Assembly (NCBI GenBank): GCA_903861145.1
Contig: CAIOTH010000023.1
Span: forward strand, 1 to 49,792
Source: an uncultured Bacteroidota bacterium
Lineage (GTDB): Bacteria > Bacteroidota > Bacteroidia > Chitinophagales > LD1
Reading direction: 5' to 3'
DNA length: 49,792 nucleotides
Positions 22,401 through 46,535 of the stretch are shown piece by piece. The notes under the pieces were generated by a model that did not search any database, was not told the DNA's origin, and was given only the letters and a program-made list of their open reading frames with translations. Position 1 is the stretch's first letter, and each line of letters begins with the position of its first letter. A program made the translations under genes and the position numbers.

Positions 22401-24197
22401 TTAGAAAGGATATTGATTTTCTTCGATAATCTTATCTGCAATTCTTCTTCTTGCCGCAGTTGTATTAATTGGTTCATATTTAGTAAAGCGCTTTAAGCCC
22501 ATTAGCATAATACGAAGTGTATCTCCTTCATTAAATGCTGTGACAGCATGCTTGCCTGAAAGGTTAATTCTTTCCAGCGAATCAGAAATATAAACCCTCG
22601 CCAGGTCTATCTGTAGCGCTGCTGCAGCCTCGCCCCTAACGCTAATCAATTTTTCAACTCTAAGCATTACCGATTCAGAAACGAATAGCTCGATAAGCAT
22701 GTCAGAAATATCCATAATGATTTCCTGTTGCTTGTCAATATCCTGCATAAATTTCTGAACCGCAGCACCGGCAGTCATCAGTATCGCTTTCTTTGCATTT
22801 TGCAAAGCTTTTTTCTCAGCAGCAAAAAAGTCATCCGAGTCACTGCTGCTAAAATCGGGCACGCTCATTAGTTCTTTTTGAACAGCCATGGCATGAGTAA
22901 ACAAATCAAGTTCGCCCTTCATGGCTTTCTTAATCAACATACCTACCGAAAGCAAACGGTTAATCTCGTTAGTACCCTCAAATATTCTGTTTATACGTGC
23001 ATCACGATAAGCACGAGCTACAGGGTATTCTTCGCTAAAGCCTGTTCCGCCAAAAACCTGAACGGCTTCATCAACTACATAGTCAACAGTTTCAGAACCG
23101 AACACTTTTAGAATAGCGCATTCAATTGCATACTCTTCTGCCGCTTTTAATTTTGCCTGCACTCTGTCCATTCCCTTAGCAACAAGCGCATCAATTTGAT
23201 CTTCCAACATACCCGAAACACGGTAAGTGGCAGCATCAGTTGCGTAGGTTTTAACCGCCATTTCAGCCAGCTTATGTTTAATAGCGCCAAAAGACGAAAT
23301 AGGCACGTTAAACTGAATTCTTTCATTCGCGTATTTCACAGAGGTAGTAATAGCTTTCTTCGAACCACCTAAACACAACACGCACAATTTATAGCGGCCA
23401 ATGTTCAATGCATTGAAGGCAATTTTTGCTCCTTTGCCAACTTCACCCAACAAATTCTCAACCGGCACTTTTACATTATTAAAAAAAACCTGGCGGGTTG
23501 AGGAGCCTTTGATACCCAGTTTTTCTTCTTCTGCTCCCAGCGAAACACCTTCAGCTTTGGCATCCATAATTAATGCAGAAAATTTGTTGCCATCTATCTG
23601 CACAAACACAGTAAAAATATCAGCAAAGCCGCTGTTAGTGATCCACATCTTCTGGCCGTTCACGATATAGAACTTGCCATCTTCGCTAAGCACAGCCTTA
23701 GTTTTAGCGCCCAATGCATCGCTACCCGAACCCGGCTCCGTCAAACAATAAGCCGCTTTAATTGAACCATCACCTAGGCCCGGTAAATATTTTCTCTTCT
23801 GCTCTTCAGTTCCGAAATACAAGATAGGTAGGGTACCTATACCGGTGTGTGCAGCAAACGCCGCGGTAAACGAATGCCCTTTACCAATTTCCTCATTGAT
23901 AAGTGTATCCGTGTGCGAATCCACTCCCAAACCACCATATTCCTCAGGTATTGCGGCACCAAGCAAACCAAGTTCAGCCGATTCATGCATTAACTGCACC
24001 ACCAGCGCGTGGTCGCCTTTATCAATTTTGGCAACGTTAGGCGTTACACGCGAATCGATAAAATCCTGCGTAGTTTTAGCAAACATTTGCTGCTCCTCAG
24101 TAATTTCATCACGGGTATACACATCAGTAAATGGTGTTTCCTTTATCAGGAATTCTCCGCCTTTCACTACTTTTTTGGTTTCTGTTGTGGTTGACAT
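22401..24197 (-). CDS. fadE: Acyl-CoA dehydrogenase, VLCAD/ACAD9-type (copy 2, proximal)
   Basis: I start at ATG 24197 (MSTTTETKKVVKGGEFLIKE), giving 598 residues; the longer in-frame start at 24245 would translate the inverted repeat of the neighbouring cassette (residues such as YLILITKY). The same dehydrogenase motifs are present as in copy 1, including YCLTEPGSGSDALGAKT and RIFEGTNEINR with the catalytic Glu. N-terminal and C-terminal extensions align with copy 1. The gene lies directly after a four-helix-bundle gene whose 3' end and flanking repeat occupy its leader. That gene may have displaced an earlier intergenic region between thiolase and dehydrogenase. Confidence 0.92.
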   Translation of the reverse strand: MSTTTETKKVVKGGEFLIKETPFTDVYTRDEITEEQQMFAKTTQDFIDSRVTPNVAKIDKGDHALVVQLMHESAELGLLGAAIPEEYGGLGVDSHTDTLINEEIGKGHSFTAAFAAHTGIGTLPILYFGTEEQKRKYLPGLGDGSIKAAYCLTEPGSGSDALGAKTKAVLSEDGKFYIVNGQKMWITNSGFADIFTVFVQIDGNKFSALIMDAKAEGVSLGAEEEKLGIKGSSTRQVFFNNVKVPVENLLGEVGKGAKIAFNALNIGRYKLCVLCLGGSKKAITTSVKYANERIQFNVPISSFGAIKHKLAEMAVKTYATDAATYRVSGMLEDQIDALVAKGMDRVQAKLKAAEEYAIECAILKVFGSETVDYVVDEAVQVFGGTGFSEEYPVARAYRDARINRIFEGTNEINRLLSVGMLIKKAMKGELDLFTHAMAVQKELMSVPDFSSSDSDDFFAAEKKALQNAKKAILMTAGAAVQKFMQDIDKQQEIIMDISDMLIELFVSESVMLRVEKLISVRGEAAAALQIDLARVYISDSLERINLSGKHAVTAFNEGDTLRIMLMGLKRFTKYEPINTTAARRRIADKIIEENQYPF

Positions 24198-24205
24198 ATC
24201 ATTTT

Positions 24206-24236
24206 GGTATTTAGTAATTAGTATTAAGTATTTAGA
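24206..24236. repeat. Left 31-bp inverted repeat of the four-helix-bundle cassette
   Basis: Its reverse complement matches 24641-24671 at 27 of 31 positions with no gap; both outer ends read GGTATTTAGTA and both inner ends GTATTTAGA. The stop codon of the four-helix-bundle gene lies inside it (24232-24234), and it forms the leader of the downstream dehydrogenase. Confidence 0.75.
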
Positions 24237-24621
24237 CTGGTGCACCCACCTTGTTGAATTTTGTCAAGTCGGGATTTAGCTTTTGTTGCAAATTAAAGTT
24301 CATCTTCTGTATCTCCGTTAACCTGCTATATATAATTTCACTTACCTCTTTCGAAATCAATCCCAGCTTTTCAGAAACTATCACCTGCGTCTCCAACTCA
24401 TAGCACGATCCGTGAGCTATTGCTAAAAAATGGCAAAACTCCTTTTCCGAATTTCGACCCGCTCCCTCAGCAATATTCGAGGATATCGATACTGCACTTC
24501 TTCTCATCTGAGAAACCAAACCGTATTTTTCTTCTTTAGGAAATTCAACGGTTATCTTATAAATATCAACTACCAAGTCAATAGCTTTTGTCCAAACTTT
24601 CAATTGCCGGTAATTATGCAT
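24232..24621 (-). CDS. Four-helix bundle protein (23S rRNA intervening-sequence/Avd-like family)
   Basis: 129 residues, start ATG 24621. The family signature is clear: YRQLKVWTKAIDLVVDIYK at the N-terminus, then EEKYGLVSQMRRSAVSISSNIAEGAGR and ELETQVIVSEKLG. This family was first seen in proteins encoded by 23S rRNA intervening sequences and shares its fold with Avd of diversity-generating retroelements. Stand-alone copies are common in Bacteroidota and have no agreed function. Here it interrupts a fatty-acid operon and is bracketed by 31-bp inverted repeats at 24206 and 24641. No reverse transcriptase or variable repeat is nearby, so a diversity-generating retroelement is not supported. Confidence 0.88.
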   Translation of the reverse strand: MHNYRQLKVWTKAIDLVVDIYKITVEFPKEEKYGLVSQMRRSAVSISSNIAEGAGRNSEKEFCHFLAIAHGSCYELETQVIVSEKLGLISKEVSEIIYSRLTEIQKMNFNLQQKLNPDLTKFNKVGAPV

Positions 24622-34738: not shown

Positions 34739-35812
34739 TTAGTGGCCCTCCTTGCGCCCAAAAAAATCTTTCAGGTAATTTTCTATATAATCCGCGTAGT
34801 GCCTATGCCCCTTGTTATTTAAATGCCCATCGGGGTAATCATTAAAATTTGCTTTTGCATTTGGTAGCATAATCCAATCATCCTTCAAGTCCTTATCCTC
34901 TAATATATCTGAAAACTTCTTTCTGTAATCATCCAGGCTTTTATCCGCATCTTTAATTTCAGGAACCAGGATGAATTTAACCGCGAGATGGTTTTGCGCC
35001 GCCGCTTGCTGAATTTGCTTTAAATATTTTTTAGTGATGTGGCTATCTTTTACCACCGCTTCATACTTCAACTTTTCCTCAATCCTAAAGCGAACCGAGT
35101 AGATACGCGACAGCAAGGCGCTTTTTGCAATAATGCGCTCAAAAATATTTTTAGGATTCCGCAAAAAATATCTCTCGTACATCGCATAATGATAAACCTC
35201 CTGTGCCGAATTGAAGTGGATGCCATCCAAATCAGCCATAATAGCACCCGCATTGGTATCGTAATAAAAGGGGTCAAATGGTTTTACTTCCCTGTCCTCT
35301 GTCATTAAATCGTTACCCATATAAAAAACCACGAAGGTTATATCAGGCTTAAACCGCGGTATATATTTTTTTGCTACGGTGTAGTATTGAGGTGGGTCAG
35401 TAGCCGGGATACCCAGGTTTATTACTTCGTAATTGTTCTCATTTCTCACCAGGTCCACAAAACAATGATTCACCACGGGCTCAGCCGAAAGCCCCCAAGT
35501 AAAGCTATCACCAATAAAAAGCACTTTCTTTTTTGTTGAATCGAGTTTATCAAAATCCGGCGTGCGAAATCCTTCGTTATTTATTCCGGTACGCCGGTTA
35601 GCCCAATAAGCACTATCAGCCACCAAAATACCATCGCCATTAACCGTGTAATCATTAACCATGTAGAGCGAATCAACCGGTTTAAGGTTTAACCAATTTG
35701 GGCGCATATCGCCGGGCGCATAACCCATTCCACGTACTATAAACTCCACTATCCCCAGCAAAACAACTAACAAAAAGAGTTGGAAAGAAATGAGTTTTAG
35801 TTTGGAACGCAT
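34739..35812 (-). CDS. Membrane-anchored SGNH/GDSL hydrolase (first of two)
   Basis: 357 residues. One N-terminal membrane helix (about 6-27) is followed by a periplasmic SGNH domain. The nucleophile block is IGDSFTWG with Ser103, and the catalytic Asp-His pair is D328xH330 in DGHLNNKGH. The SGNH fold includes O-acetylesterases and acetyltransferase-like proteins acting on polysaccharides (AlgX/AlgJ and OatA-type relatives). The gene follows a second, different SGNH gene by 1 nt, and both belong to the glycan operon downstream of the dual glycosyltransferase. Whether it adds or removes acyl groups cannot be read. Confidence 0.78.
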   Translation of the reverse strand: MRSKLKLISFQLFLLVVLLGIVEFIVRGMGYAPGDMRPNWLNLKPVDSLYMVNDYTVNGDGILVADSAYWANRRTGINNEGFRTPDFDKLDSTKKKVLFIGDSFTWGLSAEPVVNHCFVDLVRNENNYEVINLGIPATDPPQYYTVAKKYIPRFKPDITFVVFYMGNDLMTEDREVKPFDPFYYDTNAGAIMADLDGIHFNSAQEVYHYAMYERYFLRNPKNIFERIIAKSALLSRIYSVRFRIEEKLKYEAVVKDSHITKKYLKQIQQAAAQNHLAVKFILVPEIKDADKSLDDYRKKFSDILEDKDLKDDWIMLPNAKANFNDYPDGHLNNKGHRHYADYIENYLKDFFGRKEGH

Positions 35813-35813
35813 T

Positions 35814-36857
35814 TTACTTTTTGGTTATTAAATTTCCCTCTATCAATTTCTTCTCTACTAATCGGGCCATCAAATTATACCCGTAAGGATTAAAATGCCA
35901 GTCGTTACGGTACGAATATTCAAGATAATTTTTACCGGCCAATCCTGTTGCAATATCATCCCACAAATTGATGCAGGGAATATTTCTAACTGCAAGCTGT
36001 TGCTGCAAAGAGATAAAGGATGCGCGAAATTTTGTCGTTTCCGGTGTTTTAAAACGGATATCAGAAGGAGTGGAATATAACAGTACAATAATCCTGGTTG
36101 AATCAGGCCCAACCAAATTTACAAACGAATCAACCACATTATTGTAGCACACAATGGCGCTGTCCGTATTAGCAAATAAATCCTGTTGAGTTGAAAAAAC
36201 TCCTCTAAAAGGAAAGCCACCCACTTTTTCAATAACCGCCCGTGCAAAATATGAGCCTCGATAGATTGGGTGATACCAGGGGCCTTTTCTAAAATGAGTG
36301 GTTCCGTCTTTATCAAACCGCTCAAAACCTCCGCGCATTAGGTAATCTGTAAAATCAGATGAGTTGATGGAAACGATAATATAATCGGCCCTACAGCCCT
36401 TTAAAATATCACGATGCAGCACATAATTATAAATAGGGTCGCTACCGGCAACGCCAGTGTTGATTACTTCGGCATTTACTCCATCGCCCCTCAACTTGCG
36501 CGCTAGTAAATGGGGCCACGTGCTGTCATAAGGTGCTCCCTGGCCCTCGGCAAACGAATCACCGGTCACAAATATTCTGATGGTCGTATCGCCTTTGCTT
36601 TTTTCAAAGCCGCGCTCCCGGATTCCGTATTTATTGATGGAATATGCATACCGAAAATCGCTGTTCGCCGGGGTTGTGGTATCACCCGGGGTATGCAAAA
36701 GGTACCATGAAGGATTGATTGCATTGTAGTAGGTAGAATACTTTTGCCCGATAGACTCTGAGTACGTAGCAAACCTTCCCGTCAAACGTAAAAAGGCTTC
36801 CGCGGCGGTTATTACTACAACCACTACCATAAGAATATATAGCAGGTAACGCTTCAC
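35814..36857 (-). CDS. Membrane-anchored SGNH/GDSL hydrolase (second of two)
   Basis: 347 residues. A signal-anchor helix lies at about 3-22. The nucleophile block VTGDSFAEG contains Ser101, and the C-terminal pair is D319xxH... in NDWHFNPYGYNL (Asp319, His321). The layout matches its neighbour (34739-35812) but sequence similarity between them is low outside the catalytic blocks, so they probably act on different positions or in opposite directions. The gene ends 1 nt before the first SGNH gene and starts 1 nt after the dual glycosyltransferase stop, indicating tight coupling. Confidence 0.78.
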   Translation of the reverse strand: MKRYLLYILMVVVVVITAAEAFLRLTGRFATYSESIGQKYSTYYNAINPSWYLLHTPGDTTTPANSDFRYAYSINKYGIRERGFEKSKGDTTIRIFVTGDSFAEGQGAPYDSTWPHLLARKLRGDGVNAEVINTGVAGSDPIYNYVLHRDILKGCRADYIIVSINSSDFTDYLMRGGFERFDKDGTTHFRKGPWYHPIYRGSYFARAVIEKVGGFPFRGVFSTQQDLFANTDSAIVCYNNVVDSFVNLVGPDSTRIIVLLYSTPSDIRFKTPETTKFRASFISLQQQLAVRNIPCINLWDDIATGLAGKNYLEYSYRNDWHFNPYGYNLMARLVEKKLIEGNLITKK

Positions 36858-36858
36858 T

Positions 36859-38916
36859 TTATTCTTGCAATTTACTTTTAAAGAAACTACTATATAAACG
36901 TGGTGCCTTTAAAAAATAATAAAGGTCCTTTTTTAAAATAGCGTATTTACCCACTGGTTTTTGCATCAATTTATATTGCACCAAAAGCTTTCCTAAGGCA
37001 GAGCGATATGGAATATCGTTTTTATCAATTTTCCGTGTACGCCACTCCTCATTCATCCAATGAACAAACAAAAAGTTTTTCGCGAACGCGGTATTGCCGT
37101 AAATAAACTCCTCAACTATTCGCCAGTCATCAGCATTTCCGCAACCGGAATTAACAAACTTTTGCAGTTTCAATTCCTTAACGTACTTATTTAATATTTT
37201 GATGGGCTTATGCCAATCCGTATTCTCACTATCCACCGTTAGTACCGCTTCTTCATAGCACAGTCGCATTAATTCGCTATTAATCGGGCCCTTCATAACA
37301 TTACCAACCATGTTAAGATCATGATGACTCCGAAAAAAATAAGGTTCCCGGATATCAAATGGTTGCAGACAAGTAACATCCATATCAACCCACCAGCCCC
37401 CTTTTTCATAAAGCAGTTTATACCTGAAAATATCTGAAAAGCCAGACACACTTCCCTTTCCGTGCCCGTATTGATTGGCCTTACTGTACCTGAATACCGA
37501 CGAGCGGGGTATAATTTCATTCGCATCGCAAATCACCACCTGTGGGGGTAATTCGTTTTTTAGTGGTTCGTACAACCATAAATGAAAAGTATGCCCCATT
37601 CTTATAAACGAATGAATGGTCAATAGTTCAACAACAGATAATTCATTGCCTATCCAAAGCCCGTTAATTACATTGTTATCTCCCATCCTTACCACGTTCT
37701 CCGAGCACAGGCTATCTTCAAGGGCTCGGTTGTCGCCGGGCAATAGGCATGAAACATAATCCCAAATGCCCCAACCTCTTCTGCCAAAATTATGGTAGAT
37801 ATGAATCAGCGCCGGCTTTAAACTCGCTACAAAGGCATCATCCGTAAAATTCCCCTCCTCATCAACCATAATGTAGATGTTGTTCCAATCGCTTATAAAA
37901 TTGAACCTTTTAGGAAGCACCGGGTTATTCTGCAAACCAAATTGCCAGGCAGTAGCAATTAGTGTTCCCTGATCACGCACCTTCCACTCGGGCCATGTAA
38001 ATATTTGCATGGTTTTATCAAACCAGGCATTCATAAAATCCTCACTGTTGTGGTCAAATAAAAAAACACCGCCGTTCCAGTGCTGAAAGTTTTTATCCTT
38101 TACCTCGATGCCAAAACGGCTCAAAATATAATCATGCAAATGCGGACAGGCCAAATTATAAACATCTCTTCCATCAGCATCAATCCACCGCTGTGTTTCA
38201 GCATTCCATCGCCAGCTTGAATTTGTTTCAATATCAGCAATCATGCTTTCGTCGTATGGGATTATAACATTGCCTTCCTTATCGTACCACGTTCTATCCT
38301 TTCGGTCAAAAAAATTATCATCGTCCAATTTAAATCTGTTCCTGGCCAGGTTAAAACGCAAGCTGGTATATAAGTAGCCGATTTTATTGCGTCGCATTAT
38401 TTCAAATCTCTCCAGTAATTTGTCCCTCTTCTCCTGTATAATCGGGTCGCGCCATTTACTGCGGGGGTCGTATTTTCCTTTCAGCGCTTCAATTTCAGCA
38501 ATGCGTATATTATTCTGTTCTGTGCAATCACAGTTAACCGCACTCAAACTGAACTGAGGCATTCGGCAATGGTCCGCCGCAAACGTTACCGGCCCTGTTT
38601 TATAATTAAAAATTTCATCGCAACCAGCACTTAAAGCAACAACATCAGTATCGAGATAACAATAGGTAAAACCCTTCGGTAAAAATTTATTAAGCCCCGT
38701 TTTAAGATAAATACTGGCCTGGTGATGGGTGAAATTTTCAGGCGTTTTTACGTCTATTATGTGTTCGTGTATAATAGGCGCACTGTTACGGCTTGTATCG
38801 GTAACTACAATAATTTCGTTCTTCGAAAAATGCTTTAGGTAACGCAGCGAAAATCGGAGCGTATCTAGGTGCCCTTTTTCTCCACACACCACAAAAACAA
38901 ATTTATTAGCTGACAT
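36859..38916 (-). CDS. Dual glycosyltransferase: GT8-like N-terminal and GT32-like C-terminal domain
   Basis: 685 residues, no membrane helix. The N-terminal half begins FVFVVCGEKGHLDTL and has a nucleotide-sugar DxD in CYLDTDV (residues 87-92) plus a later NGGVFLFDH block near residue 295, as in GT8-like enzymes. The C-terminal part from about residue 425 (GLWIGNELSVVELLTIHSF) matches the GT32/Gly_transf_sug family with its DxD in GGWWVDMDVT (about 511-513). Two complete DxD motifs imply two sugar transfers by one protein. It is the only glycosyltransferase in the locus. Donor and acceptor unknown. Confidence 0.8.
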   Translation of the reverse strand: MSANKFVFVVCGEKGHLDTLRFSLRYLKHFSKNEIIVVTDTSRNSAPIIHEHIIDVKTPENFTHHQASIYLKTGLNKFLPKGFTYCYLDTDVVALSAGCDEIFNYKTGPVTFAADHCRMPQFSLSAVNCDCTEQNNIRIAEIEALKGKYDPRSKWRDPIIQEKRDKLLERFEIMRRNKIGYLYTSLRFNLARNRFKLDDDNFFDRKDRTWYDKEGNVIIPYDESMIADIETNSSWRWNAETQRWIDADGRDVYNLACPHLHDYILSRFGIEVKDKNFQHWNGGVFLFDHNSEDFMNAWFDKTMQIFTWPEWKVRDQGTLIATAWQFGLQNNPVLPKRFNFISDWNNIYIMVDEEGNFTDDAFVASLKPALIHIYHNFGRRGWGIWDYVSCLLPGDNRALEDSLCSENVVRMGDNNVINGLWIGNELSVVELLTIHSFIRMGHTFHLWLYEPLKNELPPQVVICDANEIIPRSSVFRYSKANQYGHGKGSVSGFSDIFRYKLLYEKGGWWVDMDVTCLQPFDIREPYFFRSHHDLNMVGNVMKGPINSELMRLCYEEAVLTVDSENTDWHKPIKILNKYVKELKLQKFVNSGCGNADDWRIVEEFIYGNTAFAKNFLFVHWMNEEWRTRKIDKNDIPYRSALGKLLVQYKLMQKPVGKYAILKKDLYYFLKAPRLYSSFFKSKLQE

Positions 38917-38925
38917 TTCTTTATC

Positions 38926-39780
38926 CTAAACCGCGTTTAAACCATTAGCATTATTATAATAATGATACCTCTCTTCAAACTCATCAATAGCCACTTTACG
39001 GGGTTCGGCATATGGCCGACTACTTAAAAGTTTAGCATCTACTTTTCCCGTTTTAAGGTATTCGCTAAAATACTTAATCATAAAATCTCCTTCTATCTCG
39101 TAAACATCAATGGTGTTTCGCTCCTTATTGTGATAATGGTAAATAGGCACCGATTCATCAGGCACCACCAGCGAGGCACACGCAATTCTCGCTTTATCAG
39201 TTGTATTGGCCAACGAATAATGAAATAGTGCCGCATCATAAATAATTACCTCGCCGGCTTTCATCGGCAGCATAATTCCATATTTATCCGTTACTTCCTG
39301 AGATATCTCGCTAAAATCAAGCGCCCTGATTGGCTGGCCTCTAAACCCATCAAAAAATTTATTCGACCTGGGAATTATCCATAAGGCGCCATTGTCAGCA
39401 TTCACATCAACCAATGGGCTCCAAACATTTAAAGCCTGAAATTGAGTTTCGTCCACAAAAGTAGGATCCTGGTGCAGCCGCATTTGGTTGGGCTTGCCGG
39501 GCACTTTGGTAATAAATCCTGAGTATAGAAGTTTATAGTCTATTAAATATTCCCCTAGCCTTTTCAACACAATAGCACCGGTTAATTCTTTAATGTTCCT
39601 GCTTAAATCAAAATTTTTCGAGCTGGTTAATCTTTCCATGGCAGGTTGTTCCTCTACCCTATTGGCATAATAAATTCGCTCCAGTTCTTGTATATCATCC
39701 TCCGTAAGAAGTGGCACAATACAATATCCATTTGCCTCAAAGTGCATTTGCAATTTATCATCTTTAAAAACCCTCCTCAT
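38926..39780 (-). CDS. Phytanoyl-CoA dioxygenase (PhyH) family, Fe(II)/2-oxoglutarate oxygenase
   Basis: 284 residues. The iron-binding facial triad is His103 and Asp105 in RLHQDPTF, and His187 in LFHYSLANTT; Arg198 after it probably binds 2-oxoglutarate. The N-terminal helix region (NGYCIVPLLTEDDIQELERIY) is typical of the PhyH family. Such enzymes hydroxylate small molecules, lipids or sugars. Placed between an AsnB-like amidotransferase and the dual glycosyltransferase, it may hydroxylate a component of the glycan or lipid produced here. Substrate not predictable from sequence. Confidence 0.85.
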   Translation of the reverse strand: MRRVFKDDKLQMHFEANGYCIVPLLTEDDIQELERIYYANRVEEQPAMERLTSSKNFDLSRNIKELTGAIVLKRLGEYLIDYKLLYSGFITKVPGKPNQMRLHQDPTFVDETQFQALNVWSPLVDVNADNGALWIIPRSNKFFDGFRGQPIRALDFSEISQEVTDKYGIMLPMKAGEVIIYDAALFHYSLANTTDKARIACASLVVPDESVPIYHYHNKERNTIDVYEIEGDFMIKYFSEYLKTGKVDAKLLSSRPYAEPRKVAIDEFEERYHYYNNANGLNAV

Positions 39781-39853
39781 TTCGATTCAATTTTAAATTG
39801 GCCCAACTCCGATTGTCCAGGCATCAAAGATAAACAATAACACTCGTTAGTCT

Positions 39854-41626
39854 TCAACACCACCGCCTATACCACGTTTCCATCACTGCAACTTTCCATA
39901 GTCGCCAGTGATCCTTATTTGCCAGCAATTGTTGAATATAACCACCATTTACAATTCCATCTTTAACCAACCGGCTTTCATTTAGCCTGCTTTCGTACCA
40001 GGGCAAATTCATGTAATATTTATCGGGTCCTACAAAACCCTGCTTTTTGCGTTGCAAAACCTCGTTAGGCAAATGGCCTTTAATATTTTGGTATAACAAA
40101 TGCTTGGTCTCGCTTTTCTTATAATAAACATCTGACTTTAGCTGAAAAACAAATTCACAAATTTCATGGTCTAGAAAGGGCACCCGCACCTCTAAGGAGT
40201 TGGCCATACTAGCCCTATCAATTTTTGCCAAAACCAATTCGCCCATAAAATGCTTTACATCCATTACCTGTATTGCTTTTAAATCAGGAAGCGATTTGTT
40301 GTAAAGGGAGTGATAATACCAATCAGGATTCGGATTGATGTTTTGGTGCAAATCAGGATGCAATAGTTTCTGCAATTCATTACTATCAAACCGTCCCATG
40401 GCCATAGCATTTGCATAGTATCGCAAAATATAAGGATTAGAATCAGATCTGACTAATGAGAGCAACTGTTCCTTCAACGAACTTCGTTTAGGCTCGTACT
40501 CTTTTTGCCATTGGTAGCCCACTAAAAACTCATCACTACCCTCACCACTCATTACAGCCTTTACGCTTTTTGCGGCCTCCTGGCTAACCAGATAGGTAGG
40601 TATAGTAGATATATCGCCGTTGGGCTCATCATATACCCACACAAGGTGATCCAACAAATCCAACGATTGGGATTCAAGAATAAGGTTATGATGGTCGGTA
40701 TGGTATTGTTTGGCTACCATCTCGGCAAACAAATGCTCACTTACGTCCCACCCTTCAAACCCAATTGCAAAGGTTGATGGGGTATAACCAAACCTGCTCA
40801 TGTAGTAAATAATAGCTGAACTGTCATAACCACCACTTAAAAACGACCCAACCGGTACATCGCTGCGCGCGTGCGTTTTTACTGAATTCAGAAATAGCTC
40901 ATCAAATTTTTCCACTGCATCTTTATCCGAAATTGTATTCTCTGCAAAAGGAACATTCCAGTATTGCTTTACTTCAGTGCTTCCATCCGCTTTCAAAATT
41001 AAGTATGAGGCTACCGGAACTTTCTTCACCTCATTCCAAATACTTTTGGGGGTTGGCACATAGCGATAAACAAAGTAATCGGCAAACGAAGTGAGATCTA
41101 AAGTTGTATTAACGGTAATATTTGCCTTTATACCCTTAATTTCTGAAGCAAAAACAAAATTCCCGTTTTGGTGATAATAGTAAAGCGGCTTAATACCAAA
41201 CCGGTCGCGGGCCAAAAACAATTCCTTTCTGTTTTCATCCCAAATAGCCAGCGCAAACATGCCTTTCAGGCGCTTTAACACGTCATGTCCCCACTCCTCA
41301 TAACCGTGCAAAATTACTTCGGTATCGGTATGGCTTTTGAATTGATACCCTTTGCCCTCAAGCTCAGCCCGTAACTCAACATAATTATAGACTTCGCCAT
41401 TATAGGTTATCCAAAGTTTGCCATCAGCAGCACTCATGGGTTGCTTGCCCGCTTCGCTTAAATCTAAAAAAGATAGGCGGCGATGGCCCAACCCAACTGT
41501 TTTTGATTCGTTAAGATACGTCCCAAATCCATCAGGCCCGCGATGGCGCAGGGCATCATTCATGGCATTTATATCCTGCTCAACTATTGGCCTTCCCAAA
41601 TTTACCTGCCCTGCAATGCCGCACAT
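39854..41626 (-). CDS. asnB: Asparagine synthase (glutamine-hydrolysing) family amidotransferase
   Basis: 590 residues, with two domains. The class II glutaminase has the N-terminal nucleophile Cys2 (MCGIAGQVNL), LRHRGPDGFG and ITYNGEVYNY. The synthetase domain from about residue 235 has the pyrophosphatase loop FLSGGYDSS (residues 262-270). All catalytic residues needed are visible. AsnB homologues in O-antigen and capsule loci can make uronamides instead of asparagine, and the neighbours here favour such a role. The start ATG overlaps the UbiA stop by one base (TAATG), so the two are translationally coupled. Housekeeping asparagine synthesis remains possible. Confidence 0.88.
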   Translation of the reverse strand: MCGIAGQVNLGRPIVEQDINAMNDALRHRGPDGFGTYLNESKTVGLGHRRLSFLDLSEAGKQPMSAADGKLWITYNGEVYNYVELRAELEGKGYQFKSHTDTEVILHGYEEWGHDVLKRLKGMFALAIWDENRKELFLARDRFGIKPLYYYHQNGNFVFASEIKGIKANITVNTTLDLTSFADYFVYRYVPTPKSIWNEVKKVPVASYLILKADGSTEVKQYWNVPFAENTISDKDAVEKFDELFLNSVKTHARSDVPVGSFLSGGYDSSAIIYYMSRFGYTPSTFAIGFEGWDVSEHLFAEMVAKQYHTDHHNLILESQSLDLLDHLVWVYDEPNGDISTIPTYLVSQEAAKSVKAVMSGEGSDEFLVGYQWQKEYEPKRSSLKEQLLSLVRSDSNPYILRYYANAMAMGRFDSNELQKLLHPDLHQNINPNPDWYYHSLYNKSLPDLKAIQVMDVKHFMGELVLAKIDRASMANSLEVRVPFLDHEICEFVFQLKSDVYYKKSETKHLLYQNIKGHLPNEVLQRKKQGFVGPDKYYMNLPWYESRLNESRLVKDGIVNGGYIQQLLANKDHWRLWKVAVMETWYRRWC

Positions 41627-42690
41627 TAGTAGTCTTCCTCTATTTTAAAGTTCTCTCTTATCTTTTTAATATCCTTAAATAACTTGATTATAAAGTTGGG
41701 GAAAAGGATAAGGTGCAAGATAAGTAAGAAAACAAACTCGTGTCGGTAAACGCTTAGTATTATCAGCATAAAAACAGGCAGCCATCCCTCGTAAAAGTCA
41801 TTCATAAAATAGGTAAACTTAAACTCGAGAAGTCGCCTATCTGCATAACCAATTTTCCAGCCGCTCATTTTTAAATACGATATGATGGCAAAACATAGTA
41901 GCGGAATGATGAGGGGCGGAATATGAATACTCATAACCACCATCAAACAAACCAGGAGAAATACCTCAGCAGGAAAAAGATAATGATTAATGAAATTGAT
42001 GATACGCCATGGGCCGTACTTTACAACTGCCGTATTGAGGCCAGCCGCTTCATCTTGTTTTCGGTCTTCTATTTGGTGTAAAAGGATGTTGCGGATTCCC
42101 TTAATAAAGCATACAATGCCCAGTAATGTAAAGAAAGAGTAAAACCAAAGATCCAGGTAAGGAGCCACCAAAAACACGGACAGCGTAATCATAACCGGGT
42201 TGAGATGGCCGTAAAAGGCATCAAAAATTACACCTAAAGCAGCCTTGTCTTTTGCACGAAGTGGTTCTAAGCTATATAATATTAGTGCTAGTAACTGGGC
42301 AATAAATAAAAAGGTGGGATTCATTATAGGGAAAACGAAGATCCAACTCTGATACATTAGCATGCTCCATGCGCCAATACCAATAAAAAAAGGAATTGCA
42401 ACTGCCGTTAAACGTGCAGGTAGTTTTAGCTGAGCAAGGCGATTGACTTTACCTGCCAAAGAATCTGATTCAATATCGCACAAATCGTTAAAGAGGTAAC
42501 CAAAGGCCGCGATGCTAATGAGAGCAAGAAAAAACAGGCAGCCCCTAACTGCGGAAAACACTAGATATTCCTTGAAGCGAGCAAAGTACGGAACGGTAAA
42601 AAGAAAGATCAGCATCGCAAAATAAATCCAGCCCAGCACCTGCGGCACTATTGTGTTCCACCATGAATTTATTCTAATCAGCTTAAGCAA
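41626..42690 (-). CDS. UbiA family prenyltransferase
   Basis: 354 residues with about nine hydrophobic helices. The first aspartate-rich motif is NDLCDIESD (residues 68-76) and the second lies in QIEDRKQD (Asp209 and Asp213), followed by AAGLNTAVVKYG, typical of UbiA enzymes. YSLEPLRAKDKAALGVIFDA is the conserved cytoplasmic loop also seen in chlorophyll- and tocopherol-type members. The family transfers a polyprenyl chain onto an aromatic or other acceptor at the inner membrane; one branch makes prenyl-phosphoribose lipids. It is coupled to an AsnB-like enzyme by a stop/start overlap and divergent from a methyltransferase across 45 bp. Acceptor unknown. Confidence 0.85.
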   Translation of the reverse strand: MLKLIRINSWWNTIVPQVLGWIYFAMLIFLFTVPYFARFKEYLVFSAVRGCLFFLALISIAAFGYLFNDLCDIESDSLAGKVNRLAQLKLPARLTAVAIPFFIGIGAWSMLMYQSWIFVFPIMNPTFLFIAQLLALILYSLEPLRAKDKAALGVIFDAFYGHLNPVMITLSVFLVAPYLDLWFYSFFTLLGIVCFIKGIRNILLHQIEDRKQDEAAGLNTAVVKYGPWRIINFINHYLFPAEVFLLVCLMVVMSIHIPPLIIPLLCFAIISYLKMSGWKIGYADRRLLEFKFTYFMNDFYEGWLPVFMLIILSVYRHEFVFLLILHLILFPNFIIKLFKDIKKIRENFKIEEDY

Positions 42691-42697
42691 CTTTAAA

Positions 42698-42705
42698 TAT
42701 TTTTG
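42698..42705 (+). promoter_or_regulatory. -7 promoter box for the methyltransferase
   Basis: TATTTTTG matches TAnnTTTG, 30 bp before the methyltransferase ATG, within the 45-bp divergent gap. The -33 position would lie inside the UbiA coding start and shows no TTTG. Confidence 0.4.
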
Positions 42706-42735
42706 CCGCCGTAAATTTAAGTTTAGTTTTAGCTC

Positions 42736-43560
42736 ATGTTAGATTTTATCAAAAAGCTTTTTGATTCTAAACCCGTTCAGGAAACTACTCCTGCTTCCAG
42801 CGTTAGCGACGTAAAGCAATACTACGAAGATTGGACGCAACGTTATATTGAGTCCTTCGGCGATACTTTTCAGAGCCGCAGATTGAATGACCTACCCAAA
42901 TTGACCGAATATTTGATAGGGTCGGCTGGAATAAAAAGCGACATGAAAATAGTAGATGCCGGTTGTGGCATTTGCGGCCCGGCTATAATGCTTTGCCAAA
43001 AAATTGATATTCAGATTGACGCCATTACTCTATCAGAGGAGCAAACCGAAATAGCGAAGAAAAAGGTGGCCGAGGCGGGGCTAAGTGACAAGATAAATGT
43101 GATTTGCGGTGACTTTCAGAAAATGGATAGCTTTCTCGCTAAAGATGCCTACGATGGGGTTATCTATCTCGAGTCTTTTGTACACAGCGATAATACCCAG
43201 CGGGCGGTTGATGCGGCTGTGGCAATAACCAAACCTGGTGGTTTTATTTACATCAAAGATTTATACCATGGCACTGCCCGTAACGCACAGGAAAAAAAAG
43301 ATATAGCCCAGGTAGTTCAAAACTCTAACAAGCACATTTTAATGAATGTAAAGAAGCTGCATGAAGTAGTTGCCGCTTTTGAAAATGCACCCATAACTTT
43401 CGACTTTATTAAAAAGCTTGGGTTTGATGCCGATGTAGAAGTAGCCAATGAATTTATAAGAAGGAACATGATTCCCCTAAATCAAAATATCCAAAGCGAT
43501 ATCTTCTTTCTTAAGTTTTTAGATTACTACGAGCTGCGGGTTACCAAATTATTCAACTAA
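42736..43560 (+). CDS. Class I SAM-dependent methyltransferase
   Basis: 274 residues. The SAM-binding motif I is VDAGCGICGP (residues 73-82), motif II is near DAITLSEEQ, and CGDFQKM is the adenine-side acidic position, as in small-molecule and sterol/tocopherol-type C-methyltransferases. The N-terminal 28 residues are extra relative to the core. It is the only plus-strand gene in the glycan locus: divergent from the UbiA gene, and overlapping the convergent wzt stop by 4 nt (CTAA). Two roles are conceivable: methylation of the UbiA product, or methyl capping of the exported glycan. Neither is demonstrated. Confidence 0.82.
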   Translation: MLDFIKKLFDSKPVQETTPASSVSDVKQYYEDWTQRYIESFGDTFQSRRLNDLPKLTEYLIGSAGIKSDMKIVDAGCGICGPAIMLCQKIDIQIDAITLSEEQTEIAKKKVAEAGLSDKINVICGDFQKMDSFLAKDAYDGVIYLESFVHSDNTQRAVDAAVAITKPGGFIYIKDLYHGTARNAQEKKDIAQVVQNSNKHILMNVKKLHEVVAAFENAPITFDFIKKLGFDADVEVANEFIRRNMIPLNQNIQSDIFFLKFLDYYELRVTKLFN

Positions 43561-44801
43561 AGTTTAGTTACTGATACCGGTACTAATGGCTTTACGAGAC
43601 CTTGCAAATGCAGGTCTCGATTTGTTTCGGTGTTACTATCATCATCTGCCATTTTTATAGCGATAAACTTATCGGCCTTAAACATTAGGGCCTTTTTATC
43701 ATCGTTAACAACACGTAACTCTACCGAGTAAAGCCTGGTATTCAATAGGTTTGCCGGTATTTGAAACTCAACGTGGTATTGGCCTGCCCTATTAATTTGA
43801 AGTACCTCCTGCCGGGCAGAGCTGCAGGTAAAAATAAGCGCACCTGTTGCGTCATAAAACTTTAACCTGAATTCAGTGGTAATCTCTTCAAACAACTGCA
43901 CGTCTAAATAAATTGCAAAAGGATGATTGGTGCTAATACCGTTGTGGTTAGCTATATAATCCTTGATTCCGTATTTAAGCAAACGCATATCCTTTTGCTC
44001 AAATGGCGATTCATCCAGATTTTTGATATGAAAAAACTCGCCTTCTTCAAAATGAAAATATTGCGGCAAGGCAATGGTCATGTATTTTTGAATAATATCC
44101 GCCCCTCCTGTTTCAATTATCTGCCCATACTCCATTAAAATAATCCGGTTGCACAAAACCGAAATCTCGTTCATATTATGGCTGGCAATAAGCAGGGTTT
44201 TGCCGGCTGCAATTAACTCTTCAATCTTGTTTTTACACTTCATCTGAAAGTTAGCATCGCCAACATTCACCACTTCATCTATCAGGTATATATCAGCATC
44301 CAAACAGGTTATTATTGAAAACGCCAGGCGCAGGTACATACCCGAACTATAGTTTTTAACGGGCTCTTCAATAAATTTTCCGATGCCGCTAAACTCCACT
44401 ATTTCGTTAAAGCGCTCTTCAATCTTTTTGCGTGTAAACTTGTAAAGCGAGGCCGATAAGTAGATATTCTCTCTGCCCGTTAATTCCGGATGAAACCCCG
44501 CGCCTATGTCGAGAATAGAAACAGCTTTACCGTAAAAATTAATTTCTCCCTGGTCGGGTTGGCTGATGCCACTTAGTATGCGCAACAAGGTTGATTTCCC
44601 TGCACCGTTTTTACCAATAATACCCAGCGCTTCGCCTCTCTCCAAATTGAATGAAACATCCTTCAGCGCATGAAAATCTTCAGCAGCAGCGGTTGTAGAA
44701 TTAAAGAAATTAGCGATGGAGCCCTTCAAACTATCAATCCGGTTTTCGCGCATCCGAAAACTTTTCGATAGATTTTTAACCTCCAGCATTACCTCGCTCA
44801 T
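43557..44801 (-). CDS. wzt: ABC transporter ATP-binding protein with Wzt-type C-terminal domain
   Basis: 414 residues. Walker A is GKNGAGKST (63-71), the signature is YSSGMYLRLAF (about 157), and Walker B is YLIDEVVNVGD (about 176), in the O-antigen/teichoic acid exporter subfamily. From about residue 250 a second domain follows (beta strands, IYLDVQLFEEITTEFRLKFYD), matching the Wzt C-terminal carbohydrate-binding domain. This domain recognises a terminal modification on the polymer before export in known systems. It lies 12 bp after the wzm stop. The C-terminal domain is the reason to look for a capping enzyme next door. Confidence 0.9.
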   Translation of the reverse strand: MSEVMLEVKNLSKSFRMRENRIDSLKGSIANFFNSTTAAAEDFHALKDVSFNLERGEALGIIGKNGAGKSTLLRILSGISQPDQGEINFYGKAVSILDIGAGFHPELTGRENIYLSASLYKFTRKKIEERFNEIVEFSGIGKFIEEPVKNYSSGMYLRLAFSIITCLDADIYLIDEVVNVGDANFQMKCKNKIEELIAAGKTLLIASHNMNEISVLCNRIILMEYGQIIETGGADIIQKYMTIALPQYFHFEEGEFFHIKNLDESPFEQKDMRLLKYGIKDYIANHNGISTNHPFAIYLDVQLFEEITTEFRLKFYDATGALIFTCSSARQEVLQINRAGQYHVEFQIPANLLNTRLYSVELRVVNDDKKALMFKADKFIAIKMADDDSNTETNRDLHLQGLVKPLVPVSVTKL

Positions 44802-44813
44802 ATTCCGGTTGTA

Positions 44814-45635
44814 TTATAAATAGTCTGCAACAAATTTCTCATTCCTTACAAAAAAGTAAAGGCCGCTTATAAGCATTAAAGCGGCAATAGTAAACGAACA
44901 AGCCACCTGCACAAAATTGATAGGAAGGCCTATAAATATCCAACGATACAGCGCTATAACATTGGCCACGGGGTGCAGGTAATATATCCAGCTAAAGCTT
45001 TCGGGTACCATCGTGGTTGGATAAAATACAGGCGTAAGCCAAATGCCAAAGCCTATTAAATAAGGTATCAGGTGATGCAAATCTCTAAACCGAATGGTGA
45101 GCGCACTTAACCAAATGCCGATAGAAAGGCCCGACATAATATTCGCAATAACAACCAATGGCAAAAAAACGATTTTGGGCGAAATACCTACACCAAATAC
45201 CAGCAGCATCACCAACAACAAAATAAGCGAGATGCTAAATTCTACTAAGCCCACCAATGCTTTTGAAAGAGGAAGTACCAGGCGTGGGAACTGAATTTTT
45301 TTTATGAGTGCCTGATTGGCCATTAAGGCCGTGCCGCCCTGGCCCACCAGCGCGGTAAAATAAAACCAGACCATTATACCGGTAAAGGCAAACACTGCAT
45401 AAGGTACATTGAGGTGCAACGGAATAACACGCTGAAAAAAGAAATTAAAAATAATAAGCCCGGTTAAAGGTTGAACAAGGGACCAAAATACACCAAGGTA
45501 AGTCTGCGCGTATTGTATCTTAAGGTCTCGCACTGCAAATGAAAGAATCAGGTTTCGGGCATCAAAAACTTCTTTCAAATAGCTTCCAAGCGATTGGCGC
45601 CCCCCGCGAATGCTTTTATAAATCTTCCTTTCCAC
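44814..45635 (-). CDS. wzm: ABC-2 type polysaccharide export permease
   Basis: 273 residues with six hydrophobic segments. The start FDARNLILSFAVRDLKIQYAQTYLG and LGVFWSLVQPLTGLIIFNFFF are the hallmark of Wzm/TagG-type polysaccharide exporters. With the Wzt protein encoded 12 bp downstream it forms the inner-membrane pore for lipid-linked glycan. It follows the sulfotransferase gene by 3 nt and so is in the same operon. Confidence 0.92.
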   Translation of the reverse strand: MERKIYKSIRGGRQSLGSYLKEVFDARNLILSFAVRDLKIQYAQTYLGVFWSLVQPLTGLIIFNFFFQRVIPLHLNVPYAVFAFTGIMVWFYFTALVGQGGTALMANQALIKKIQFPRLVLPLSKALVGLVEFSISLILLLVMLLVFGVGISPKIVFLPLVVIANIMSGLSIGIWLSALTIRFRDLHHLIPYLIGFGIWLTPVFYPTTMVPESFSWIYYLHPVANVIALYRWIFIGLPINFVQVACSFTIAALMLISGLYFFVRNEKFVADYL

Positions 45636-45638
45636 CTA

Positions 45639-46535
45639 TCAAAGTAAATATTCTTTCAAATAAGGCTGATATAATTCTTCATTGCGCAAAATTTCGGCTT
45701 TGCCTTTAAGCGCTTCTAATACACCATCCATACCCTGCATGCCTTCTTCTTTATCAAGCATACGCGCCAAAGATTTTAATAAAAAATCGATATTGTGCCT
45801 GTGCAGTTGTATAATATAGAAACCATACAATAGCCTTTGCATCTTATAAGGCAACGGTTTTACCGCCCTGTACACCACATTCGAAAACCTACGATAAGCA
45901 TGTAGCAGCTTTCTATCTAAAGAGGCATTAATTTTTTCTGAAGTAAACTGAAAGGTGTTTTTAATACCCATTTTTTTTTCAATAATGGCGGTGAAAGAGT
46001 GGGGGTCGGCCCTAAGTAACTCATAGGGCAATACTATTACGTTATCATTTCCAAATTTCTCCCGGTAAAGGCCAATCACCCTGCTGTAATCAAATAAATC
46101 AGGAAAGTTATCCCACATGGACTTTAGCAGATTTTCAAAATCATAAGTGCCGCCAATGGCCAGGTACTGCGAGTAGAACGACTGAAAAAGCGATGTATAC
46201 CCCCGTGTTACAATCAAAATTTTTGCGGTAGGATAAATATCAAAAAGTGTATCACGCAGTTTTTCCTGGTAGGCTTTTATATCATACTTTTTAAGCCCGT
46301 TGCGCATACCCACAATATCCGAGTCACTTTTCCAAACACTTAAGTGCTCGCTGCTAATTACAAAGCATTCATGTATTGGCTCGGTTGATTCGGCATACCA
46401 CGAAAAATCATGCGAATTGTAAAAGCCTGTTATTGCCTTAAACTTATAAAACATAGCGGGGTGCTTCTCAAACCACCGCTGCAAATAAGTTGAGCCCGAT
46501 TTAATATAACCAATATGTATCAGCACTTTCGACAT
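45639..46535 (-). CDS. Sulfotransferase family protein (glycan modification)
   Basis: I start at ATG 46535 (MSKVLIHIGYIKSGSTYLQ), giving 298 residues and placing the 5'-phosphosulfate loop GYIKSGSTYLQ at residues 9-19. The longer start at 46586 overlaps rnz and adds 17 residues before the domain. A second PAPS-binding region is visible in ILIVTRGYTSLFQSFYSQY (Arg and Ser). The family moves sulfate from PAPS to hydroxyl groups of sugars, lipids or peptides. It is 4 nt after rnz and 3 nt before wzm, so it probably sulfates the exported glycan. A PAPS synthesis operon is not in the window. Confidence 0.78.
   Translation of the reverse strand: MSKVLIHIGYIKSGSTYLQRWFEKHPAMFYKFKAITGFYNSHDFSWYAESTEPIHECFVISSEHLSVWKSDSDIVGMRNGLKKYDIKAYQEKLRDTLFDIYPTAKILIVTRGYTSLFQSFYSQYLAIGGTYDFENLLKSMWDNFPDLFDYSRVIGLYREKFGNDNVIVLPYELLRADPHSFTAIIEKKMGIKNTFQFTSEKINASLDRKLLHAYRRFSNVVYRAVKPLPYKMQRLLYGFYIIQLHRHNIDFLLKSLARMLDKEEGMQGMDGVLEALKGKAEILRNEELYQPYLKEYLL

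Follow-up and report, generated by a model that had tools for sequence, protein, structure and literature searches.

The locus described here comprises ten genes at positions 34739-46535 of a 49,792-nucleotide contig from an uncultured Chitinophagales bacterium of the phylum Bacteroidota (CAIOTH010000023.1, assembly GCA_903861145.1); this whole stretch was analysed and is called the window below. A UbiA-superfamily prenyltransferase, an AsnB-type amidotransferase and a glycosyltransferase (GT) are encoded beside a Wzm/Wzt ATP-binding cassette (ABC) exporter, and several described systems share some of these parts. In the moenomycin pathway, 3-phosphoglycerate is prenylated by a MoeO5-type enzyme and a pentasaccharide is assembled, with an AsnB-like amidotransferase (MoeH5), ABC export and a B12-radical-SAM (S-adenosylmethionine) methylase; to our knowledge, the prenyltransferases of this pathway are not UbiA proteins. 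In mycobacteria, a UbiA protein serves galactan-linked arabinan. MoeH5 makes carboxamides (PMC8778134). MstE was the first monodomain class II terpene cyclase to be described and acts on a prenylated benzoate (PMC9401909), and in the merosterol pathway it works with a UbiA-like prenyltransferase (PMC5618424). The Wzt protein of Aquifex aeolicus recognises a methylated terminal sugar (PMC9445017), and the polyprenyl-phosphoribose synthase of Citrobacter was tested at R366 and E369 of its second motif (PMC11127046).

The locus matches each of these systems in part. It shares with moenomycin the logic of a prenylated glycolipid and an amidotransferase (PMC8778134), but differs in having Wzm/Wzt, a sulfotransferase, a PhyH oxygenase and SGNH proteins. 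Its relatives resemble the cyanobacterial merosterol pathway in combining UbiA with a monodomain DxDD cyclase of about 345 residues and adjoining oxygenases, whereas the window itself lacks the cyclase that marks an MstE-type system; two relatives, G009 and G004, carry one beside the orthologous UbiA. The passages that describe the merosterol pathway (PMC9401909, PMC5618424) name no AsnB, GT, Wzm/Wzt, sulfotransferase or SGNH genes, and an aromatic acceptor is putative in the locus. As in A. aeolicus-type O-antigen export, there is an ABC-2 permease and an ATPase with a matching C-terminal domain, and the methyltransferase and sulfotransferase are possible sources of a cap; UbiA, AsnB and PhyH fall outside that system as the relevant passages describe it (PMC9445017), and a Pfam scan of the ten genes only revealed no initiating phosphoglycosyltransferase among them. 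Polyprenyl-phosphoribose synthase systems (Rv3806c; Citrobacter ORF12-15) likewise place a UbiA-fold protein in glycan assembly and in an O-antigen locus (PMC11127046), but their second motif differs, and their partner phosphatase, flippase and GT-C families are absent from the ten genes. A hypothetical sponge adociasulfate cluster, argued to be bacterial, would unite UbiA, a class II cyclase, an oxygenase and sulfation (PMC5618424), a likeness found in relatives whose cyclase lies close to a sulfotransferase (G009, G004, G011, G014 and G497). However, that cluster is a prediction made in a review whose relevant passages do not mention Wzm/Wzt (PMC5618424), and the window has no cyclase.

We tentatively propose, at a little under even chances, that the locus directs the synthesis and export of a glycoconjugate with an isoprenoid tail and with amide and sulfate groups. 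The best reading of the product form is a prenylated, amidated, sulfated glycolipid or an isoprenoid-tailed glycan; its substrates, the order of steps and the product itself are all inferred. The observations that carry this proposal are the gene content, the conservation of the unit, the prenyltransferase-type motifs and fold of UbiA, the fusion of a UbiA-subfamily domain to a GT, and the linkage to terpene cyclase and oxygenase genes in relatives.

Gene content of the locus

The window is the entire contig C23 of a 4.70-Mb draft genome (G000). An open reading frame (ORF) check and a Pfam scan indicate that all ten ORFs are intact at the following coordinates, and the families named by the sequence-only reading for these ten genes were recovered by Pfam, with SGNH1 scoring below its cut-off and its motifs recognised by eye.

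34739..35812, minus strand: SGNH1, SGNH/GDSL hydrolase or O-acyltransferase-like protein with an N-terminal hydrophobic stretch (by eye); PF13472 below cut-off
35814..36857, minus strand: SGNH2, SGNH/GDSL protein; PF13472 E 2.9e-8, over cut-off; 1-base gap to the GT gene
36859..38916, minus strand: two-domain GT, 685 amino acids; PF04488 (Gly_transf_sug) at residues 493-521
38926..39780, minus strand: PhyH-type Fe(II)/2-oxoglutarate oxygenase; PF05721 E 1.6e-20
39854..41626, minus strand: AsnB-type glutamine-dependent amidotransferase (GATase_7 and Asn_synthase); PF00733 E 1.9e-75; 1-base overlap with ubiA
41626..42690, minus strand: UbiA-superfamily intramembrane prenyltransferase; PF01040 38.4 bits, cut-off 34.2
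42736..43560, plus strand: SAM methyltransferase (RebM/MitM/sugar O-methyltransferase-like); Methyltransf_25, PF13649 E 2e-12
43557..44801, minus strand: Wzt, ABC ATPase (ABC_tran, PF00005) with a Wzt-type C-terminal domain at residues ~250-414
44814..45635, minus strand: Wzm, ABC-2 permease (ABC2_membrane); PF01061 E 3.2e-12
45639..46535, minus strand: PAPS (3'-phosphoadenosine 5'-phosphosulfate)-type sulfotransferase; Sulfotransfer_3, PF13469 31 bits, cut-off 27; IKSGSTYL and TRGYTSLFQSFYSQY by eye

Conservation of the UbiA-AsnB-GT-Wzm/Wzt unit

The family to which this genome belongs is represented in the search set by 30 genomes from four genera. UbiA is found in 28 of them (E ≤ 1e-10) and lies within 6 kb of a GT domain in 22 of the 30 (40 stretches examined), with nine stretches placing the two at 0-62 bases. 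Counted as misses are G005, G011, G013, G016 and G028, with short or different contigs, G009, where the distance is 9.3 kb, and G010 and G025, which yielded no match to UbiA or GT.

Two paralogous cluster types occur in the family, and the window carries type I, whose close UbiA is present in eight genomes; a 220-residue UbiA fragment of G008 (L080), which clustered with the close type, was excluded from these eight. In all eight the UbiA-AsnB gap is 0-4 bp, and Wzm/Wzt lie within 6.5 kb in seven, the eighth (G011) being represented by a 4.3-kb contig that cannot tell. Outside the family, UbiA-AsnB-GT recurs in NORP154 (L095) and in L150, and a Saprospiraceae metagenome-assembled genome (MAG; L096) carries the run Wzm-Wzt-x-epimerase-UbiA-AsnB-radical SAM-GT-GT-SGNH-SGNH. 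A cyclase-UbiA-AsnB-GT arrangement, in some cases with intervening genes, is present in G191, G229 and G187, all three of them near-complete genomes. The earlier suggestion that these genes form one unusual unit is thus upheld by ubiA-asnB standing with wzm-wzt in seven of the eight close-type genomes and by ubiA-asnB-GT beyond the family (L095, L096, L150). Independent movement of the UbiA-AsnB and sulfotransferase-wzm-wzt parts in relatives had been named as what would speak against that suggestion; it was not seen for UbiA-AsnB relative to Wzm/Wzt in type I, and was seen in part for the sulfotransferase.

Type II clusters, found in all four genera, have the order (methyltransferase)-UbiA-(AsnB)-(epimerase)-GT-radical SAM, in which the bracketed parts vary, and the genome of the window holds pieces of such a second cluster on C113 (L062, L063). 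In type II clusters (L064, L066, L061, L057 and others), about three radical SAM proteins of ~500 residues, each with a SPASM/twitch domain at the N-terminus, follow the GT, usually one in the same orientation as the GT and two in the opposite one. The ~515-residue family-1 proteins belong here and are not MBOAT acyltransferases, a first assignment that was ruled out.

The UbiA profile matched 51 of 396 genomes in an order-wide draw (E ≤ 1e-40; 24 of them from the same family), and in a phylum-wide draw of 395 it matched the genome of the window alone (E ≤ 1e-50). By these counts, the unit appears conserved but taxonomically narrow. Most titled records of GT-gene relatives are Bacteroidota MAGs, under names such as Bacteroidetes bacterium, Chitinophagales bacterium and Saprospiraceae bacterium.

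UbiA motifs, fold and fusion to a glycosyltransferase

The UbiA protein carries NDxxDxxxD at residues 68-76 and DxxxD at residues 209-213, and N68, D69, D72, D76, D209 and D213 are invariant in a 10-row alignment (A1). DxxxD also occupies the second-motif position in the other UbiA groups aligned. An AlphaFold model (mean predicted local distance difference test score, pLDDT, 83.9) is closest to Archaeoglobus fulgidus UbiA with dimethylallyl diphosphate or geranyl diphosphate (VIA Z 18.1; for 4tq4, root-mean-square deviation (rmsd) 3.3 over 247 residues and Foldseek E 2.8e-4), followed by digeranylgeranylglyceryl phosphate synthase (VIA Z 16.4) and Aeropyrum pernix UbiA (16.3). When the UbiA profile was compared with Protein Data Bank (PDB) sequences, two weak matches were the only ones obtained (8j8j, E 0.13; UBIAD1, E 0.22). 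With the two Asp-rich motifs and helical fold of the superfamily, the protein is predicted to catalyse prenyl transfer. Taken alone, the modelled fold would be compatible with a phosphoribosyltransferase role, but the second motif argues against this role because it is DxxxD and not R366/E369 as in the tested synthase. The genome encodes seven UbiA-family proteins, and the close-type UbiAs are 45-61% identical to that of the window (61% for G009).

In G017, a 769-residue protein (L077:6751-9060) joins an N-terminal UbiA-subfamily domain to a C-terminal GT4-type glycosyltransferase. The UbiA part is recognised by profile A1 (E 1.6e-47) and by its motifs, with no Pfam UbiA match at E 0.001, and the GT part by PF00534 (E 3.9e-36). 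Clustering places proteins of G015 (L065:7074-9434) and G007 (L069:7377-9686) in the same family of 769-786 residues, of which the G017 member was the one scanned. Open frames of 772-778 residues around profile matches to UbiA in G191, G176 and G016 suggest, by their length, further fusions. The fusion and the direct adjacency of UbiA and GT genes constitute the strongest evidence that the UbiA product is glycosylated.

A class II terpene cyclase in relatives

In G009 and G004, a gene for a protein of ~345 residues lies between wzt and ubiA, and DxDDT is invariant in four homologues. The G009 protein, which was the one scanned, has no Pfam match at E 0.01 and no NCBIfam match at E 0.001, and the matches of the family profile to abietadiene synthase and squalene-hopene cyclases are no better than E 0.1. 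A model built from the four sequences (pLDDT 81.6) resembles the terpene-cyclase domain of bacterial drimenol synthase over 288 residues (VIA Z 29.2, rmsd 3.0) and, over 297 residues, MstE, a monodomain class II cyclase, in complex with geranylgeranyl dihydroxybenzoate (Z 25.8, rmsd 3.0). Further class II cyclases follow down to Z 18.6, and unrelated alpha/alpha-toroid proteins start from Z 19.9. The structural model and the DxDD motif together identify the protein, by prediction, as a monodomain class II terpene cyclase with a single alpha/alpha-toroid domain.

With the cyclase profile, 17 genomes were recovered, 14 among the 396 of the order draw and 3 among the 395 of the phylum draw; DxDD is present in 13 of the 17 homologues and, by simple pattern, missing in G392, G002, G005 and G525. 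UbiA lies within 6.1 kb of the cyclase in 14 of the 17 genomes, or in 11 of 14 without G009, G004 and G006, whose cyclases were found near UbiA and went into the profile. The other three genomes of the 17 are G074 (none within 20 kb) and G011 and G005 (other or short contigs). The three UbiAs beside the phylum-level cyclases fell below the A1 threshold and were found with a broader custom hidden Markov model. A binomial estimate for 14 of 17 gives 7e-29 and is meaningful in direction only, as it takes two UbiA genes per 4 Mb for granted, treats the genomes as independent and ignores relatedness; it includes the three defining genomes, and the seven UbiA genes of the window's genome raise the chance rate several-fold with the verdict unchanged.

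Wzt lies within 3.8 kb of the cyclase in 7 of the 17 genomes (at 4-15 bases in G009, G004 and G006, and also in G074, G014, G002 and G011; 4 of 14 without the defining three). The sulfotransferase family lies within ~5.5 kb in five (G009, G004, G014, G011 and G497; 3 of 14 without the defining three), and is directly adjacent in G011 and G497. The cyclase is fused to a cytochrome P450 in G191 and to PhyH in G014, and separate P450 genes lie close to it in G006, G002 and G497, the last with the P450 fused to an acyltransferase. The window UbiA falls within a 13-row clade (support 99/95), and eight of its rows have a cyclase nearby. Two products had been put forward on first inspection, a prenylated sulfoglycolipid and a sulfated, acylated polymer; the former is the better supported, through the UbiA-GT fusion and the terpene-cyclase linkage. 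Acylation is putative, its sole indication being the two SGNH proteins.

In the window, the methyltransferase occupies the slot where G009 and G004 carry the cyclase. A tblastn search for a cyclase remnant in the window returned only a 72-residue match at E 0.28. By analogy, the product of this genome presumably belongs to the same series but is left uncyclised and is perhaps methylated.

Export pair and sulfotransferase

The best NCBIfam models for Wzt are teichoic-acid and galactan exporters, below their cut-offs, and Wzm scores 42 bits, below cut-off, against the galactan exporter permease NF050109. The Wzt C-terminal domain has no Pfam family at E 0.01. A profile of this domain from six relatives, however, matches PDB entries 8dky/6o14 and 7k2t/8dku (E 3.7e-4 to 2.8e-3), which are titled 'ABC transporter' and which we take to be the A. 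aeolicus Wzt carbohydrate-binding domain and Wzt itself; the Wzt-type domain first read from the letters is therefore borne out by this comparison and not by Pfam. The pair thus has the predicted make-up of such an exporter, an ABC-2 permease with a Wzt ATPase bearing a putative carbohydrate-binding C-terminal domain. By analogy, a terminal cap could be supplied by the methyltransferase, whose gene overlaps wzt by 4 bases, or by the sulfotransferase, whose gene lies 3 bases before wzm.

PAPS supply is likely because the genome encodes adenosine 5'-phosphosulfate (APS) kinase (G000:C35), as do 28 of the 30 family genomes, this one included. The sulfotransferase family occurs in 18 of 318 order genomes (E ≤ 1e-20), in 11 of which it is no more than 5 kb from wzm and/or wzt (G000, G009, G001, G004, G011, G014, G016, G008, G013, G147 and G123). 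It stands alone beside rnz in G007 and G017 and without a wzm/wzt neighbour in the stretches of G002 and G168; the gene is at a contig end in G004 and on a 4.7-kb contig in G015, and the contexts in G194 and G044 were outside the comparison. The rnz-adjacent site looks variable, as G007 (L212) and G017 (L214) keep the sulfotransferase there with the rest of the cluster absent from the site.

Assembly and tailoring enzymes

The C-terminal domain of the GT is GT32-like; the N-terminal domain of ~390 residues shows a DTD motif by eye and has no glycosyltransferase Pfam match, and a sequence search of the PDB with the GT returned nothing up to E 0.1. Homologues are present in 26 of the 30 family genomes (E ≤ 1e-5), and the two halves are often separate genes, which confirms the two-domain description. 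Homologues with a single in-frame stop were seen in G016:C172, G021:C144, G008:C291, G027:C6, G022:C336 and G012:C92, and in these drafts are either pseudogenes or assembly errors.

AsnB scores 507 bits, below cut-off, against TIGR03108 (XrtA/PEP-CTERM amidotransferase) and 494 bits, over cut-off, against TIGR01536, and its best PDB match is 7ylz, a 'hydroxyamidotransferase' (E 5e-65), ahead of asparagine synthetase B (1ct9). Because the genome has five other AsnB-like genes (36-45% identity), the cellular asparagine synthetase may be a protein other than the AsnB of the locus. PhyH has PHYHD1 and SnoK as its closest PDB entries and an HxD...H motif by eye. Tandem runs of four or five PhyH genes, one of double length (~636 residues), lie near type II UbiA in L188 (G009), L189 (G001) and L063 (G000:C113). 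The methyltransferase family profile has as its best PDB matches 3bus (presumably RebM), MitM and a D-glucose O-methyltransferase. SGNH1 matches PF13472 (Lipase_GDSL_2) at E 3.6e-6 (28 bits, cut-off 32.9), with GDSFTWG and DGHLNNKGH by eye, and has homologues of 54-74% identity in G009, G001, G003, G014 and, at a different site, G006.

The orthologous cluster of G009 (L044:431-3493) has B12-binding radical SAM and Arylsulfotran_2 (PF14269) proteins between phyH and the GT gene. That of G001 (L045:7304-12122) encodes a tyrosine phenol-lyase (TIGR02618, over cut-off), a GlcD-like FAD oxidase and a GlpD-like dehydrogenase; the lyase as a source of a phenolic acceptor is speculative.

Gene order and genomic setting

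From rnz, the minus-strand order is sulfotransferase, wzm, wzt, [methyltransferase, plus strand], ubiA, asnB, phyH, GT, SGNH2, SGNH1 and then an SSF transporter. The sulfotransferase start is corrected to 46535 as the probable site; a longer ORF starting at TTG runs 47 bases into rnz. In the export block (sulfotransferase-wzm-wzt) neighbouring genes are 3 and 12 bases apart, and in the ubiA block (ubiA-asnB-phyH-GT-SGNH-SGNH) the distances are -1, 73, 9, 1 and 1 bases. These short distances (-1 to 73 bases) make each block look co-transcribed, and the plus-strand methyltransferase between minus-strand wzt and ubiA implies at least two transcription blocks. In G001 the orientation of the export block relative to ubiA is inverted.

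An assembly chimera is unlikely because GC content is uniform along the window and the same flanks, the ORF at 48228, STAS and rnz on one side and SSF on the other, are found in G009 and G001. Elsewhere in the window, positions 11577-18981 hold a likely type IX secretion cargo unit, in which genes for PorP/SprF and a PD40 protein come after that of a 1438-residue PKD/SBBP protein bearing a CHU_C type IX secretion signal. An acyl-CoA dehydrogenase is encoded at 22401-24245 and a MATE protein at 2811-4166, 30 kb from the locus.

Proposed pathway and alternative explanations

In the proposed pathway, UbiA would use a prenyl diphosphate as donor and attach its polyprenyl group to a small acceptor in the membrane, and the two-domain GT would add sugars to, or together with, the UbiA product. 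AsnB would then amidate a carboxylate, either of the acceptor or of a uronic acid, before hydroxylation by PhyH, methylation by the methyltransferase and sulfation by the sulfotransferase; the methyl or sulfate group is perhaps a terminal cap recognised by the Wzt C-terminal domain. Wzm/Wzt would transport the product across the inner membrane, and the two SGNH proteins would add or remove acyl groups outside. In some relatives, the class II terpene cyclase would additionally fold the prenyl chain. The chief uncertainties are the UbiA acceptor, for which an aromatic acid, a glycerol-phosphate-like molecule and a sugar are candidates, the carboxylate amidated by AsnB, which may be on that acceptor or on a uronic acid, and the exported product, which may be a polymer or a small glycolipid.

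A more specific form of this proposal, which we consider somewhat doubtful, is a new envelope glycoconjugate in which the sugar chain is built on a UbiA-made prenylated anchor instead of an undecaprenyl-diphosphate primer and is amidated, sulfated and exported by Wzm/Wzt. The anchor would be cyclised, and hence a meroterpenoid, in some relatives; the simplest form of the initiating enzyme would be the UbiA-GT fusion, and the lipid end would owe its shape to the class II cyclase encoded next to wzt.

Several findings weigh against the proposed isoprenoid-tailed product. The Pfam scan revealed no prenyl-diphosphate synthase or initiating enzyme among the ten genes. The profile search gave no cyclase match in the genome of the window, so the terpenoid argument reaches the window only through relatives. 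Within the 13-row UbiA clade, five rows including the window are without a nearby cyclase (G011 has one on another contig), and the cyclase-linked UbiAs of G160, G392, G292 and G002 fall outside it. The structural margin of UbiA is small, with Z 18.1 compared with 15.6 for Rv3806c and 14.4 for helical prenyl-diphosphate synthases. In five relatives (G004, G014, G021, G018 and G026), AsnB adjoins a member of a predicted NAD-dependent epimerase family, and this pair fits a plain uronamide polysaccharide equally well. The sulfotransferase is accessory and dispensable, and its family has no match in G003 and G006, though UbiA, AsnB, Wzm and Wzt are all kept there.

One alternative is a secreted small molecule, a meroterpenoid or prenylated glycoside made by moenomycin-like logic, for which Wzm/Wzt was recruited as the exporter. 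The single GT gene among many tailoring enzymes in the window fits this idea, as do the cyclase and P450 in relatives, the narrow spread (one of 395 phylum genomes at E 1e-50) and amidation as with MoeH5 (PMC8778134). However, the Wzt-type C-terminal domain is known from O-antigen export (PMC9445017), SGNH proteins are present, and a UbiA-GT core in most genomes of a whole family is more typical of an envelope component. We consider this alternative unlikely.

It is improbable that the locus consists of two unrelated systems, one block exporting a sulfated polysaccharide and the other modifying lipids, that came to lie at the same variable chromosomal site next to rnz. The two blocks of the window, the inversion in G001, the solitary sulfotransferase of G007 and G017 and the apparent variability of the rnz site would be accounted for. 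Against this stand the association of UbiA-AsnB with Wzm/Wzt in seven of eight genomes, the placement of the cyclase 4-15 bp from wzt in three genomes, and the Saprospiraceae MAG (L096) that keeps Wzm-Wzt through UbiA-AsnB to SGNH-SGNH in one run.

Quite improbable, too, is an ordinary undecaprenyl-linked surface polysaccharide exported by Wzm/Wzt, with UbiA acting as a polyprenyl-phosphoribose synthase (mycobacterial DPPRS or Citrobacter PPPRS type) that supplies a lipid-linked pentofuranose. Wzm/Wzt with its C-terminal domain is consistent with such a polymer, the UbiA fold matches Rv3806c (Z 15.6) and the first motif aligns with it weakly (E 0.13), and a UbiA of this kind is known in an O-antigen locus (PMC11127046). 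In contrast, D209xxxD213 is found in all ten A1 rows at the place of R366/E369 of the Citrobacter enzyme (matched by motif order), PRP phosphatase, flippase and GT-C families are absent from the ten genes, and the linkage to cyclase and P450/PhyH is left unexplained. A phosphoribose donor as the leading reading, prompted by the match of Wzt to galactan exporters and by the role of UbiA in mycobacterial arabinan, was rejected on the DxxxD second motif. A chance neighbourhood is rejected because the gene association recurs across genomes.

Significance of the combined gene unit

No paper on a UbiA-AsnB-Wzm/Wzt or cyclase-UbiA-Wzt locus was found, judging by titles and the openings of abstracts, among the matches listed in a search of open-licence PMC text, in agreement with the earlier statement that no described pathway has this set. 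The parts are of known kinds and their combination is new; it may turn out to represent a glycolipid anchor of a new kind. Terpenoid chemistry (UbiA, class II cyclase, P450/PhyH) and polysaccharide export (Wzm/Wzt) are usually separate fields. Here, both share one recurring Chitinophagales gene unit, in which UbiA occurs fused to a glycosyltransferase and the cyclase fused to oxygenases. Should the product prove to be an isoprenoid-tailed glycan, ABC-exported glycans would gain a lipid anchor other than undecaprenyl phosphate. The unit also provides concrete genes with which to test the bacterial synthesis of sulfated meroterpenoids, a prediction of the adociasulfate review for which no cluster was known (PMC5618424).

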